Part shown: piece by piece, positions 4,875 through 29,634 of the stretch
Layout: each line of letters starts with the position of its first letter
How positions within the stretch are numbered: position 1 is the first letter of the stretch
NCBI GenBank assembly: GCA_024639885.1
Contig: JAHEGD010000006.1
Span: forward strand, 83,633-147,632
Direction: 5' to 3'
Length of the DNA stretch: 64,000 nt
Origin: Porticoccaceae bacterium
GTDB taxonomy: Bacteria; Pseudomonadota; Gammaproteobacteria; Pseudomonadales; Porticoccaceae
Made by a program: the position numbers and the translations under genes
Notes under the pieces: generated by a model
Seen by the model: the letters and a program-made list of their open reading frames with translations, nothing else
What the model was told of the DNA's origin: nothing
Database searches by the model: none

Positions 4875-6185
4875 TCAGAGCGGCTTGCGGTAAATTTTTG
4901 AGTTGCGCTGGTAGTTGTAGAGCGACTGCCGCTCGGCCGGCAGTTCGCCCAGCGACGCCTCGACAAAGCCCTGTTCGCGGAACCAATCGGCGGTCTGGGT
5001 GGTGAGCACGAACAGCTCCGTGAGCGCCACCTGGCGGGCGTCTTTCTCAAGCGCCAGCAGCAGCCGCGAGGCGATACCGCGGCGGTGGAACTCGGGGTGG
5101 ACGGCGACCGCGGCGAGTTCGGCAGAGCGACCGTCGCCGGCCGGGTAGAGCGCCGCGCAGCCGATCAGCATCCCCTCGGGGTGGACCACCACCGAGAACT
5201 GCGAGATCTCGCGCTCGAGCGCCTCGCGCGAGCGCCGCACCAGCACTCCCTGCTCTTCGAGCGGGCCGATCAGCTCCAAGATGCCGCCGACATCCTCGAT
5301 GGTGGCGGCGCGGATAATCTCGCTGTTGTCGCGCGCCATCAAGGTACCGGCGCCGTCGCGGGTGAACAGCTCGGTCAGCAGCGCACCGTCGGCCTCGCAG
5401 TCAACCAGGTGGATGCGCGCCACGCCGTTGCGCAGCGCCTGGTAGGCGGCGGCCAGCAGCGGACCGGTCTCGCTGCCGGCGGCGGCGCTCTTGGCCACGG
5501 CCAGCTCCTCGAGCGACAGCGAGCGGCGCAGCTGGCCGCTGCCATCGCTGAGCTGCTGCTCGGGCGGTGCCAGCATAATCAGTTTCTCGGCGCTCAATGC
5601 AATGGCGACCCGCGCCGCCACATCGGCGTAGCTCATGTTGAACGATTCGCCGCTCGGCGAGTAGCCGACCGGTGAGATCAGCACCACACAGCCGTGGTCG
5701 AGCTGCTGGTTGATCGCCGCGGCGTCGACCCGGCGGACCTCGCCGGCGTGTAGAAAGTCGGTGCCATCGAGCACGCCGACGGGGCGCGCGACCACAAAGT
5801 TGCCGCCGACCACCTTGAGCCGTGCGCCGTGCATCGGCGAGTTGGGCAGCCCCATCGACAGCTCGGCCTCAATCTTAAAGCGCGCCGCACCGACCGCTTC
5901 GCGGACGCACTCCATCGCCGCGGCGTCGGTCACCCGCAGCTGGCTGGAGAACTCAGCGGCGAGACCGGCCGCCGCGCAGCGCTGATTGATCTGTGGCCGC
6001 GCGCCGTGGACCAGCACCAGGCGGATACCCAAGCTGTGCAGAATCGCTAGGTCGTGGATGGTGCGGTGAAAGTTTTCGCCCGACAGCGCCTCACCGCCCA
6101 GGCTGACCACAAAGGTCTTGTGGCGGTGGGCGTTGATGTACGGCGAGCTGCCGCGAAAAAAGGTCACATAGGCGTTGGTAGACAT
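4875..6185 (-). CDS. argA: N-acetylglutamate synthase
   Basis: Catalyses acetyl-CoA plus glutamate to N-acetylglutamate, the first step of arginine synthesis. The N-terminal two-thirds is an amino-acid-kinase-like regulatory domain (VVSLGGEAL, VLVHGARPQIN), followed by a GNAT acetyltransferase domain with the acetyl-CoA loop segment VHPEFHRRGIASRLL. I chose the ATG at 6185 (MSTNAYVTFF), which gives 436 residues as expected for ArgA; an upstream in-frame start at 6284 would add 33 residues unlike the family. A TATAAT ends 6 bases before this ATG, so the message may be leaderless. It is divergent from glnE, an arrangement tying two nitrogen-assimilation genes to one intergenic region. Confidence 0.93.
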   Translation of the reverse strand: MSTNAYVTFFRGSSPYINAHRHKTFVVSLGGEALSGENFHRTIHDLAILHSLGIRLVLVHGARPQINQRCAAAGLAAEFSSQLRVTDAAAMECVREAVGAARFKIEAELSMGLPNSPMHGARLKVVGGNFVVARPVGVLDGTDFLHAGEVRRVDAAAINQQLDHGCVVLISPVGYSPSGESFNMSYADVAARVAIALSAEKLIMLAPPEQQLSDGSGQLRRSLSLEELAVAKSAAAGSETGPLLAAAYQALRNGVARIHLVDCEADGALLTELFTRDGAGTLMARDNSEIIRAATIEDVGGILELIGPLEEQGVLVRRSREALEREISQFSVVVHPEGMLIGCAALYPAGDGRSAELAAVAVHPEFHRRGIASRLLLALEKDARQVALTELFVLTTQTADWFREQGFVEASLGELPAERQSLYNYQRNSKIYRKPL

Positions 6186-26367: not shown

Positions 26368-27036
26368 CTACTGGTCAAACAGCGATTTTAGCGCCGCCAT
26401 ATTGCGCGCCGCAGTGGCCTCGCTGGCGGGCCGGTGGGGCGCCTCTTCCAGCGCGGCAGGCGGCTCGATGGCGAGCGTCTCGCCGGCGGCGACGCGGTCG
26501 GCGTAGTGCTGATAGATCTCGCTGTACTCGGGCAGCACTTGGCGCTCGGCGTAATTGGCGAGCCGGTACCAGCCGCAGTCGCGGCCGGCCAGATAGACCG
26601 CCGGGTGGCTCCAGCGCTGCGCCGCTTTGGGGCTGGCCGCATTGCACGCCTCGCGGTAGGCCGCTAGCGGGCTCGGCAGTTGGCCGGGCAGGCCGGCGCG
26701 GCGGCACGCCTCCAGCATCTTGTTGAGGGTTGGCAGGTACTCGCTGTCGGCGATAATCCGCTCGGCCGCGGCACAGATGACCGCCGCTGGAAAGCCTTTG
26801 AGCGTCTGCAGCCAGAGCTTTTTGGTGATCGCTACCGAGCCCTGGTCGTTGCCGAACGCGCTGTAGTACTGGTTGTGGTAGTTGGCGCGAAACAGCGCAA
26901 AGGTCTGGTTGATCGCGTCGATCAACTCGGGGCTGGCCGCGGCGCTGGGTTCAGGACGCCCAGCTGCGGTCGTTGAGGTCGTCGACAAAGCTGCGGTTGC
27001 GGAGGCGAGTTGATGGTTGAGTCGAGTTTTGGCCAT
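26368..27036 (-). CDS. Replication protein P family (helicase-loader-like)
   Basis: 222 residues from the ATG at 27036 (MAKTRLNHQ). The part from about residue 30 (ELIDAINQTFALFRANYHNQYYSAFG, KKLWLQTLKGFPAAVICAAAERI) resembles the phage lambda P family, which brings the DnaB helicase to DNA. The first 28 codons overlap the 3' end of the DnaT-like gene by 86 bases in another frame, a strong sign that the two are translated together. The natural reading is a chromosomal DnaC-like partner of the DnaT-like protein in replication restart. That is inferred from family and context; no Walker A ATPase motif like that of DnaC is seen. Confidence 0.75.
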   Translation of the reverse strand: MAKTRLNHQLASATAALSTTSTTAAGRPEPSAAASPELIDAINQTFALFRANYHNQYYSAFGNDQGSVAITKKLWLQTLKGFPAAVICAAAERIIADSEYLPTLNKMLEACRRAGLPGQLPSPLAAYREACNAASPKAAQRWSHPAVYLAGRDCGWYRLANYAERQVLPEYSEIYQHYADRVAAGETLAIEPPAALEEAPHRPASEATAARNMAALKSLFDQ

Positions 27037-28132
27037 GCGATGTCTCTGCCGTTGGGCTGTTTTCGCGCGCCCACTGGCGCTTGACGAACTGAAGGAATTT
27101 ACTGCTCCACGAGCTCTGCGGTTTGCCGCTCTCGCGCCAGTAAAGAATAAATTCGGCGACCAGCTGCTCGGCAAACGAGCGGCGGATATTGGCCATCTCG
27201 AGCAGCTCGTAGACCGCCGGGTTGGGCTGCCAGTTGGCGCTGATCACTCGCGGCGCGTGGTCGTTCTCGATCAGCCCGCAGTAGTGCTGCCACTGGTGGC
27301 GAATGTGGCCGATAAATTTCGAGTCCCAGGTCGCCGAGCGCTCGCCGCGGTCGCGCCAGTAGAGCACAAACTCGGGGATCGCATCGTCGATAAAGTTGCG
27401 GTTAATCCCGCCCTGGTCTACCAAAATAGCCAGCGCATCTATCGATGGTTGCCAGTCGTTGGCGATCGGCTGCTCGCTGCGGCGGCGGTTGTCGCTGCTC
27501 ATCTGCTGCTGCCACTGGCGCCACACCTCTTTAATATATTTGGACTCCCAACTGTGCCGGGAGACGTTGCGGTCGCGCCAGTAGGCGACAAACTGGCCGA
27601 CCTGGGTAGCGGCAAACTCGCGGGTGACGCCGAGCTGGCTGAGTTGACGCAGCGCATCCTCGCTGGGTTGCCAGCTGTTGCCGATGGTTTTGGCGGCGGC
27701 CGGCTGGGCGGCGGCCGGCGGCAGGTTGGGCGATAGATTGACAGCAGAGGCGGCTGCCGGCACAACCGCGGCGGGTGTTGGGCTGGCCGCCGCAGTGGGC
27801 AGCGCGGCCACTGCCTCAGCGCTGCTGGCGACCGTTTCGTTGAAAGCAAAGGTGAACTGGCTGTCGCTGCCGATCCGGCCGCCGCGGTAGAGCAGCAGCC
27901 CCTTCTCGTGGAGGCTGGCGACCAGCCGCTGGAGGTCCTCACTGCGCCAGAACGGGGTGCTCTGCTGCAGCTGCTCAAGTGCGACCCGGTGCCAGACAAA
28001 CCCGTCGCGCGGCTCGCCGGCCACCACTGCCCGGCAGTCGCCGAGCAGCTGCAACAGCAGCGCCTCCTCAAGGCCGATAGTAGCGGCCAAGGTGGGCGAT
28101 AGGGTGAGCATTTTTTCTGGGAACAGCGACAT
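26951..28132 (-). CDS. DnaT-like protein with three tandem ssDNA-binding domains
   Basis: 393 residues. Residues 1-85 form an N-terminal domain of predicted helices (ATIGLEEALLLQLLGD, SEDLQRLVASLHEKGLLLY), like a winged-helix. After an Ala/Pro linker (100-150) come three copies of the DnaT DNA-binding domain at about 153-209, 226-283 and 300-355. Each copy has the same frame: W-Q-P, then F...F-x-x-Y-W-R-(D/E), then S-x-W-x-S-K-(F/Y) and a final Q-W. E. coli DnaT has one such domain and works with PriA and DnaC to reload the helicase at stalled forks. The gene starts 63 bases from a LexA box and overlaps the P-like gene, so a damage-inducible restart role is inferred. Confidence 0.8.
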   Translation of the reverse strand: MSLFPEKMLTLSPTLAATIGLEEALLLQLLGDCRAVVAGEPRDGFVWHRVALEQLQQSTPFWRSEDLQRLVASLHEKGLLLYRGGRIGSDSQFTFAFNETVASSAEAVAALPTAAASPTPAAVVPAAASAVNLSPNLPPAAAQPAAAKTIGNSWQPSEDALRQLSQLGVTREFAATQVGQFVAYWRDRNVSRHSWESKYIKEVWRQWQQQMSSDNRRRSEQPIANDWQPSIDALAILVDQGGINRNFIDDAIPEFVLYWRDRGERSATWDSKFIGHIRHQWQHYCGLIENDHAPRVISANWQPNPAVYELLEMANIRRSFAEQLVAEFILYWRESGKPQSSWSSKFLQFVKRQWARENSPTAETSHGQNSTQPSTRLRNRSFVDDLNDRSWAS

Positions 28133-28194
28133 TCCGCAACTCTACCAGAAACCGACAGAGGCCAGAAGCTGGGCGCGTCCAGTTGCGCCCGGAC

Positions 28195-28212
28195 ACTGTA
28201 TGTTCATACAGT
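28195..28212. promoter_or_regulatory. LexA box between the DnaT-like gene and radA
   Basis: ACTGTATG-TT-CATACAGT is an 18-base inverted repeat with perfect 8-base arms, and contains CTGT-N8-ACAG exactly as in the gammaproteobacterial LexA consensus. It is 63 bases from the DnaT-like ATG and about 55 bases from the radA start, so it can repress either or both. TATGCT at 28220-28225 is a possible radA -10 box right beside it. Confidence 0.85.
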
Positions 28213-28266
28213 TTTGAGCTATGCTGTGCGGCCATTCAATGGTTATCACCGATCAGGAGCCGTGCC

Positions 28267-29634
28267 GTGGCCAGCAAACCCAAACGCGCTTATGTCTGCA
28301 ACGATTGCGGCGCCGACTACAGCAAATGGCAGGGCCAATGCAGCGAGTGCCACGCTTGGAATAGCCTCAGCGAGGTGCGGCTCGGCAAGGGTGCGCCGGT
28401 AGCGCGCAGCGGTGGCGGTTTTGCCGGCGCCGCCGACGGCCAGATCAGTACCCTGGCCGATATCGAGCTGGCCGAAATCCCGCGTATCAGCACCGCCAAT
28501 AGCGAGCTCGACCTGGTGTTGGGTGGCGGCTTGGTGCCGGGCTCGGCGGTGCTGCTCGGCGGCGAGCCGGGTGCCGGCAAGAGCACCCTGTTGCTGCAGA
28601 CCCTGTGTGCGCTCGCCGAGCGCCAATCGACGCTCTACGTCACCGGCGAGGAGTCGCCCCAGCAGGTGGCGATGCGCGCCAACCGGCTCGGCCTAGCGAC
28701 CGATAAGGTCGAGATTATGGCCGAGACCTCGGTCGAGGTGATCTGCGCTACCGCCGAGCAGCGGCGGCCGAAAATTCTGGTGATTGACTCTATCCAAGTG
28801 ATGCACCTCGACGAGGTCAGTTCGGCGCCTGGCAGTGTCTCGCAGGTGCGCGAGAGCGCCGCGATGATGGTCCGCTACGCCAAGCAGAGCGGCACCGTTT
28901 TACTGCTGGTCGGCCATGTCACCAAAGATGGCTCGCTGGCCGGGCCGAAGGTGCTCGAGCACATGATCGACTGCTCGCTGATGCTCGAGGGCAACAGCGA
29001 CAGCCACTTCCGTATCTTGCGCAGCAACAAAAACCGCTTTGGCGCCGCTAACGAGCTGGGCGTATTTGCGATGACCGACCGCGGCCTGCGCGAGATCGCC
29101 AACCCTTCGGCGATCTTTCTGCAGCGCGGCGAGGCGGTCGCCTCCGGCAGTGTGGTGATGGTGGTCTGGGAGGGCACTCGGCCGCTGCTGGTCGAGCTGC
29201 AGGCGCTGGTCGACGACAGCCATCTGGGCAACCCGCGGCGGGTGACGGTCGGGTTGGAGCACAACCGTCTGGCGATGTTGTTGGCGGTGCTGCACCGTCA
29301 CGGCGGTATTATGGTTGGCGACCAGGATGTCTTTGTGAACGTGGTCGGCGGCGTCAAGGTGCTGGAGACCAGCGCCGACTTGGCAGTGATTCTCTCGGTA
29401 ATCTCGAGCTTTAAAGATCAGCCGCTACCGCGCCAGCTAGTGGTGTTTGGCGAGGTTGGGCTGGCCGGCGAGATCCGCCCAGTGCCCAACGGCGCCGAGC
29501 GGCTCCGCGAGGCGGCCAAGCACGGCTTTACCAAAGCGATTGTGGCGGCCGCCAACGCACCGAAAAAACCGCTGCCCGGTATGCAGGTGATAGCGGTTAA
29601 GAATATTGCCGAGGCGCTCGATGCGCTGGAGTGA
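28267..29634 (+). CDS. radA: DNA repair protein RadA (Sms)
   Basis: 455 residues from a GTG at 28267, chosen because AGGAG lies 7 bases upstream and the protein then starts ASKPKRAYVCNDCG; the longer open frame would translate the LexA box. The zinc finger is CNDCG...CSECHAW, the RecA-like ATPase has GGEPGAGKST, and the RadA-specific KNRFG motif is present (SNKNRFGAANELG). A Lon-like domain ends the protein. RadA is a helicase that processes branched recombination intermediates. It is divergent from the DnaT-like/P-like pair. Confidence 0.96.
   Translation: MASKPKRAYVCNDCGADYSKWQGQCSECHAWNSLSEVRLGKGAPVARSGGGFAGAADGQISTLADIELAEIPRISTANSELDLVLGGGLVPGSAVLLGGEPGAGKSTLLLQTLCALAERQSTLYVTGEESPQQVAMRANRLGLATDKVEIMAETSVEVICATAEQRRPKILVIDSIQVMHLDEVSSAPGSVSQVRESAAMMVRYAKQSGTVLLLVGHVTKDGSLAGPKVLEHMIDCSLMLEGNSDSHFRILRSNKNRFGAANELGVFAMTDRGLREIANPSAIFLQRGEAVASGSVVMVVWEGTRPLLVELQALVDDSHLGNPRRVTVGLEHNRLAMLLAVLHRHGGIMVGDQDVFVNVVGGVKVLETSADLAVILSVISSFKDQPLPRQLVVFGEVGLAGEIRPVPNGAERLREAAKHGFTKAIVAAANAPKKPLPGMQVIAVKNIAEALDALE

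Follow-up and report, generated by a model that had tools for sequence, protein, structure and literature searches.

A dopC/dopE-like gene pair divergent from radA as a putative phage-derived helicase loader in a Porticoccaceae bacterium

Does the gene pair that lies divergent from radA in a Porticoccaceae bacterium, with a LexA-type palindrome in between, form a dedicated DNA-damage-inducible module for replication restart, as originally predicted, or does it act as the basic helicase loader of its host? For this locus, here called dopC/dopE, we computed protein domains, conservation, exclusion with DciA, the lambda-P-like predicted fold, the retention of ssDNA-contact residues and the position of the box. 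The features below are numbered within the window, i.e. the whole stretch of DNA analysed (64,000 nucleotides of contig JAHEGD010000006.1).

26368..27036, minus strand: dopE-like gene, putative lambda-P-like helicase loader of 222 aa (PHROG_109, start comparison, fold match)
26951..27036, minus strand: 86 nt shared by the end of dopC and the start of dopE, read in two frames
26951..28132, minus strand: dopC-like gene, 393 aa; from the N-terminus, an initiator-like domain, three DnaT domains and, at the C-terminus, DRSWAS
26954..26971, minus strand: DRSWAS C-terminal tail of DopC, a possible docking peptide (alignment and named loci)
27050..27244, minus strand: DnaT domain 3 (PF17948, E=7.0e-24; genome profile search, contig C23:110682-110876)
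27281..27472, minus strand: DnaT domain 2 (PF17948, E=5.0e-24; contig C23:110913-111104)
27491..27685, minus strand: DnaT domain 1 (PF17948, E=1.2e-19; contig C23:111123-111317)
28139..28149, minus strand: TCTGGTAGAGT, a conserved element close to dopC, 6 nt ahead of its ATG
28195..28212, strand-neutral: LexA-type box, 54 bp from the radA start and 62 bp from the dopC start
28267..29634, plus strand: radA (TIGR00416, E=1.6e-201)

The neighbours of the pair are aceK, radA, nhaA and ahpC.

Domain composition of DopC and DopE

The three DnaT-type domains initially read from the DNA were recovered by a Pfam search of the 393-aa protein, which matched PF17948 DnaT over three stretches (E=1.6e-66). 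The DopC profile also matched DnaT chains in the PDB (E from 4.5e-4 to 2.3e-3), and counterparts of the ssDNA-stacking Phe/Tyr/Trp of DnaT are retained in every repeat, which may bind ssDNA. DopC thus shares with E. coli DnaT the ssDNA-binding domain and its ssDNA-contact aromatic residues but has another N-terminus and three tandem domains in one chain, not the single-DnaT layout of the E. coli type; the NCBIfam DnaT equivalog PRK02854 scored 9.1 bits for a cut-off of 201. In the PHROG search, DopC matched the replication initiation families PHROG_1408 and PHROG_1032 and its N-terminus PHROG_6493, a DnaD-like loader, and no phage O domain of Pfam was listed at E<=1. Fold matches of the DopC AlphaFold model (mean pLDDT 77.8, pTM 0.45) were weak, none reaching E<=0.001.

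PHROG_109, "P-like helicase loader", matches the 268-aa frame of dopE (E=1.7e-16), and the best PDB match of the predicted DopE fold is lambda P in complex with DnaB (9oa1), three chains of which were matched with E from 9e-5 to 8e-4 and a TM of about 0.5; in a profile-to-PDB search, DopE matched the sequence of the 9oa1 lambda P chain with E=0.0022. Pfam lambda P gave 21.5-22.1 bits, under its curated cut-off of 26 bits, and phage records gave four weak matches to DopE, from Pseudomonas phage. From the PHROG_109 and fold matches, and with a Pfam score below cut-off, DopE would appear to derive from lambda P. The start of dopE is most likely the ATG at 27036 and not 27174, and an ATG lies 82-91 nt ahead of the dopC stop in 28 of the 30 loci compared, this one included; with that start, the overlap of the triple-DnaT gene with the lambda-P-like gene, already recognized in the original prediction, is 86 nt. 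As in phage lambda O/P, an initiator gene precedes a P-like loader whose predicted fold resembles lambda P with DnaB, but here the pair is a conserved part of the chromosome, DopC carries the DnaT domain three times and the Pfam lambda P score of DopE stays under the cut-off.

Distribution of the pair and of other helicase loaders

The pair had been proposed for a search in related genomes, and both dopC and dopE, without DciA, were found in 48 of 58, while eight encode DciA and neither dopC nor dopE, in two all three genes are missing, and none of the 58 combines the pair with DciA (exclusion of pair and DciA, Fisher p=2.3e-8, uncorrected for relatedness). The pair belongs to the chromosomal core of the group, although in three of the 48 relatives that carry it the partner is only a weak single-DnaT protein.

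In the host genome, which is 97.8% complete so that a gap is possible, DciA (PF05258) gave no match. The sole strong match to PF01695 (DnaC-type) is IstB of an IS21 element, beside a transposase-like gene, the second match is DnaA and the third, with 18.9 bits, is under the cut-off; DnaC was rejected on account of the first two. By the PF05258 and PF01695 searches of this 97.8% complete genome, the host therefore lacks both DciA and DnaC/DnaI. PriA is present and PriB has one match, far under the cut-off (20.5 vs 72 bits). The arrangement differs from PriA-DnaT-DnaC of E. coli, as had been predicted, since the partner of the triple-DnaT protein is P-like and there is no DnaC. A passage of PMC5109545 singles out the Cellvibrionales as being without dciA and dna[CI].

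DciA is unrelated in sequence to the pair and was not found in the host genome, but their mutual exclusion suggests an equal genomic role. Because the pair is present in these 48 relatives, exactly where DciA was not found save for the two genomes with neither, it is most likely dopC/dopE that provides basic helicase loading here, and it looks like a phage-derived loader in a marine bacterial group lacking both of the usual ones.

Brezellec et al., in Genome Biol Evol in 2017, reportedly proposed DopC/DopE as a "third" helicase matchmaker derived from lambda O/P. The pair presumably corresponds to this DopC/DopE, which reportedly also associates an adjacent lambda-P-like loader with an initiator-type partner, in Cellvibrionales-type hosts without DciA and DnaC. 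The present locus displays a triple-DnaT layout, a DRSW tail, a putative SOS box and relatives in Mu-like phages.

The LexA-type box and the dopC-proximal element

The palindrome, previously noticed between radA and the triple-DnaT gene and located at 28195-28212, reads ACTGTATG-TT-CATACAGT, with perfect arms of 8 nt and an unpaired central TT. Its bare core CTGTN8ACAG, of which 0.82 copies are expected per window by chance, was dropped as evidence. The radA-dopC box is a two-mismatch copy of TACTGTN8ACAGTA, and at <=2 mismatches the genome has 16 sites vs 28 for the reversed control, i.e. no enrichment; at <=1 mismatch there are three sites genome-wide vs one for the reversed control, which adjoin an imuA-like gene, lexA and recA and which the radA-dopC box resembles. 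The case for a LexA box is therefore made by its perfect arms, by the <=1-mismatch sites at lexA, recA and the imuA-like gene and by conservation at this spot in relatives, and with these the originally predicted box is plausible. It is of the CTGT-N8-ACAG type of the gammaproteobacterial LexA/SOS regulon, as at the three host genes, but differs in lying at radA and in only part of the group.

Looked for in relatives, as had also been proposed, the box was found close upstream of radA in 47 of the 73 named loci. Its distance to radA is near-constant (13-70 bp), whereas that to dopC varies from 62 to 1524 bp, genes having been inserted on the dopC side in relatives: in 20 of the 47 box-bearing loci over 300 bp separate it from dopC, and no long insertion occurs in the other 27. 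The 26 named loci without a box nevertheless keep the pair beside radA's side of the locus. The box thus seems mainly to track radA rather than dopC; divergent control of both genes by LexA is possible, since the box of the window lies almost midway between them.

Near dopC, 71 of the 80 named loci contain TCTGNTANAGT, against 3 of 16,000 shuffles, the pattern having been picked after viewing the sequences, and this element is conserved with or without the LexA box. One possibility is that it is a -10 region, in which case the leader would be very short; a promoter scan of the radA-dopC interval listed no site of sigma-70 consensus.

C-terminal tail and role of the pair

DRSWA is invariant across 21 aligned DopC proteins, and a D[RT]SW[AS]-type tail ends DopC in all 80 named loci (80/80); this stretch is also read as dopE, an added constraint that inflates tail conservation in chromosomes. 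Mu-like phages encode a small two-DnaT protein with a DRSWA tail and no P-like gene in the stretch examined. Conservation through two-frame reading alone is weakened as an explanation because DRSWA also ends four phage proteins for which no P-like gene was found within 5 kb upstream and about 1-2.5 kb downstream, even if this constraint still inflates the chromosomal figure. A D-x-S/T-W tail is common to DopC and some phage initiators beside P-like loaders: a first pattern matched 8/57 upstream genes, among which one gene was counted twice, vs 5/350 control ORFs, and a revised one, changed post hoc after viewing tails, 7/56 vs 1/615. We tentatively suggest, with more doubt than conviction, that this tail acts as a transferable docking peptide through which initiators of the O/DnaT type bring in the complex of DnaB with a P-type loader, that Mu-like phages draft host DopE-DnaB to transposition forks, and that the tandem repeats of DopC are a covalently pre-assembled DnaT filament.

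Since both proteins have phage relatives, a prophage remnant or a recent phage acquisition could be considered, but it is hardly credible: the same locus is kept in 48 of the 58 relatives, both genes are unbroken and show purifying selection (dN/dS 0.22 and 0.15), its neighbours, listed above, argue against it, and a search of 50,697 phage records with DopC gave nothing at E<=0.001. A decayed prophage, with broken genes, phage neighbours and patchy distribution, named at the outset as what would overturn the original prediction, is refuted by this conservation. It is also unlikely that DopCE acts only at oriC, in initiation, PriA carrying out restart another way. The role proposed in 2017 is reportedly at the origin, where lambda O and P also act, but DopC carries the restart-type ssDNA module DnaT three times and DopC-like proteins occur in Mu-like phages, relatives of which depend on restart proteins.

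We likewise judge improbable a DNA-damage-inducible replication-restart and recombination module in which LexA controls dopCE, alone or with radA. The box in the divergent intergenic region, at 62 bp from dopC, the 27 box-bearing loci without long insertion and the association of DnaT-type domains with restart in E. coli (PMC13377028) would fit it; however, the pair replaces DciA/DnaC, 26 of the 73 named loci keep the pair but have no box, the box stays with radA when dopC is distant (20 of 47 loci), and dopC has its own conserved element, box or no box. The DnaT-type and P-type parts and the helicase-(re)loading role first ascribed to the pair are supported, but its dedication to damage-inducible restart is not, given that it occurs in 48 of 58 relatives in which DciA was not found. 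We consider it likely that the pair is dopC/dopE, a domesticated phage O/P-type initiator and helicase loader that replaces DciA/DnaC and serves initiation and restart, the LexA box mainly providing SOS control of radA.

With its three linked DnaT domains, DopC would cover a short stretch of ssDNA where PriA has prepared a fork, and probably at oriC too, in the manner of an E. coli DnaT filament assembled in advance. The N-terminal domain and DRSWA tail would give the contacts that bring in DopE-held DnaB, and DopE, as a lambda-P-type ring breaker, would open DnaB onto the strand, the pair thereby serving both processes. LexA binding at the box would mainly place radA under SOS induction in this clade, any effect on dopC being possible but secondary. 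Rather than a damage-inducible restart cassette, the locus most likely comprises the basic loader of the helicase, with an SOS-controlled radA as its neighbour.

According to a passage of PMC13377028, the way in which the helicase-loader complex is brought to the E. coli preprimosome "remains unknown". This lineage seemingly runs its chromosome on a phage-type loader and would offer a compact system in which to study this recruitment, the linked DnaT array and the tail shared with phages being part of its value, and, with radA under a LexA box in one clade, the SOS response there would extend to the processing of recombination intermediates.

A putative dopC-dopE locus beside radA

The locus consists of two overlapping genes divergent from radA, with a LexA-type palindrome (hereafter the box) in the intergenic region:

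26368-27036, minus strand: dopE, 222-aa lambda-P-like protein (PHROG_109, E=1.7e-16, scored on a longer 268-aa frame)
26951-28132, minus strand: dopC, 393-aa protein with three DnaT domains (PF17948, E=1.6e-66)
28195-28212, between radA and dopC: palindrome ACTGTATGTTCATACAGT
from 28267, opposite direction to dopC and dopE: radA (TIGR00416)

The three DnaT-type domains, the P-like gene overlapping the 3' end of their gene and the palindrome had all been described in the original prediction and were all recovered. As an ATG lies 82-91 nt ahead of the dopC stop in 28 of 30 loci, including this one, the P-frame start listed at 27174 is too early; in many of the 30, the P frame is closed shortly upstream of this shared ATG. 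Relative to G001, a genome of the same genus, the two genes show purifying selection outside the overlap (dN/dS 0.22 and 0.15; 0.06 for radA). The surrounding genes are ordinary chromosomal ones (ahpC, aceK, nhaA and a TonB-dependent receptor), and DopE, although related to P of phage lambda, is itself chromosomal.

A 2017 follow-up study reportedly described dopC and dopE as lambda-O/P-derived genes acting as helicase operator in orders devoid of DciA and DnaC/I. Because the host group, the gene content and the relationship to lambda P fit, we filed our pair as putative DopC/DopE; it belongs to a named, little-studied kind, of which this locus is, as far as the tests go, a clear member. The preceding 2016 study reports that Cellvibrionales have neither dciA nor dna[CI] and asks if another helicase operator is present (PMC5109545), and a 2026 article states that in bacteria with no AAA+ loader the task generally falls to DciA or DopE (PMC13326638).

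Distribution of the pair and of other helicase loaders

In the search of related genomes that had been proposed (58 genomes, our own included), 48 gave a match to the triple-DnaT protein, and those same 48 also to the P-like protein. DciA (PF05258) was found in eight, every one among the ten genomes without the pair; the remaining two, G002 and G019, have neither the pair nor DciA, which may be due to assembly gaps. In three of the 48 (G037, G041 and G043), the P-like gene is adjoined only by a weak, single-DnaT partner. Our own genome gave no match for DciA or PriC, a single PriB match far below the cut-off, and a PriA. Of its PF01695 matches, the strong one is an IstB by a transposase-like gene, DnaA comes second and the third is below the cut-off; the IstB belongs to an IS21-type element (L044, G000:C36 near 396931-397632).

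Relatives are encoded in 512 stretches across GTDB genomes. The best 80 of these were kept as the named loci; their records mainly name Porticoccaceae, SAR92, Porticoccus and Cellvibrionales, and in all 80 the three DnaT domains go together with a D[RT]SW[AS]-type C-terminal tail (DRSWA in the window) and a P-like gene. Among 143 genomes sampled across the class, PF17948 was detected in six, one being our own: two others have three DnaT domains, an overlapping or adjoining P-like frame and the tails DRHWG and DTDW, one has two DnaT domains but lacks both a tail of this kind and, within the stretch taken, a P-like gene, and two have a single weak domain, in one case adjoining a P-like gene.

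Some variants were also observed. Of 12 loci examined more closely, the one in G051 (L158, 3017-4387, minus strand) codes for a relative of DopC that has four DnaT domains and a frame ending in DTSW. G042 (L236, 2315-3019) and G051 (L237, 2219-3001), which already have the pair, carry second, divergent P-like genes, possibly of prophage origin. In G088, a 0.9-Mb genome (L232, 2309-3130), a DopC-like gene with two DnaT domains lacks the DxSW tail, and the stretch taken shows no P-like gene.

Putative control elements between radA and dopC

In our genome, TACTGT-N8-ACAGTA occurs with at most one mismatch at three places (control pattern: one), which precede lexA, recA and an imuA-like gene (ImuA model 124 bits, under the 150-bit cut-off). 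The box between radA and dopC has two mismatches; sites of that class are no commoner genome-wide than the control (16 versus 28), and what counts is the conservation of the box in relatives. radA is present and divergent in 73 of the 80 named loci, the other seven stretches ending short of it. A box (at least 9/12 matches, at most 110 bp from the radA start) is found in 47 of these 73 versus 377 of 7300 single-base shuffles, the genomes being related and not independent.

The box could control both radA and dopC, as its distances in the window are similar (54 bp to radA, 62 bp to dopC). Over the 47 loci, however, the spacing is steady to radA (13-70 bp, median 38, sd 13) and variable to dopC (62-1524 bp, median 129, sd 568); the box follows radA. 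In 20 of these loci radA and dopC lie more than 300 bp apart, and the gap contains, in the loci checked, GNAT and short-chain dehydrogenase genes (L007) or a GNAT gene (L009). A second element, TCTGNTANAGT, picked after the sequences had been viewed, lies no more than 40 nt from the start of dopC in 71 of the 80 loci versus 3 of 16,000 shuffles; it is present in 45 of the 47 box-bearing loci, 19 of the 26 boxless loci with radA and all 20 long-gap loci. It stops 6-7 nt short of the dopC ATG (28133-28149 in the window, 6 nt before the ATG). On this positional evidence, we read the box as the putative operator of radA, which is probably SOS-controlled, and TCTGNTANAGT as a putative promoter of dopC itself, whose transcript would perhaps have almost no leader.

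Predicted folds, C-terminal tail and phage relatives

The predicted fold of DopE (mean pLDDT 81.7) best matches lambda P bound to DnaB (three 9oa1 chains, E 9e-5 to 8e-4, TM about 0.5); lambda P is listed as a DnaB ring breaker (PMC9912922). The N-terminus of the DopC model has a winged-helix-like succession of helices and strands, and plasmid Rep initiators and E. coli DnaT are among the fold matches of DopC; as none reaches E 0.001, they are supportive only. In DnaT, ssDNA bases are held by Phe124, Tyr127 and Trp128 (PMC4132743). Mapping with part of the E. coli DnaT sequence, we found counterparts in each DopC repeat (21 sequences), invariant in repeats 1 and 2; in repeat 3 the Phe and Trp never vary, and the residue between them is Tyr or Phe. 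Four DnaT C-terminal domains in the E. coli preprimosome assemble into a filament around the lagging strand, two bases sitting at each junction (PMC13377028). DopC carries three DnaT domains in one chain and would be a short, pre-assembled version of it. We infer that DopC/DopE would bind DNA, load the helicase and act at oriC.

Four IMG/VR contigs (L163-L166, about 5000-5630) encode a protein with two DnaT domains and, a few residues from its end, the motif DRSWA; a GemA gene comes directly after, and upstream is an AAA gene, which we read as MuB-like. In two of the contigs a transposase-like rve match scores below the cut-off, and the stretches covered showed no P-like gene; all four resemble Mu-like phages. 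In a set of 61 phage loci that have a P-like loader, the D-x-S/T-W tail, a pattern fixed after tails had been seen, ends 7 of 56 upstream genes versus 1 of 615 control ORFs (8 of 57 versus 5 of 350 with an earlier pattern); most phage partners of P-like loaders therefore lack it. The motif suggests a docking peptide for the loader-helicase complex.

With the pair so widespread, DciA confined to genomes without it and the box following radA, the damage-inducible restart module originally proposed is replaced by another reading: the locus is probably a basic helicase loader beside radA. As leads for further tests we point to the tail and the Mu-like phages.
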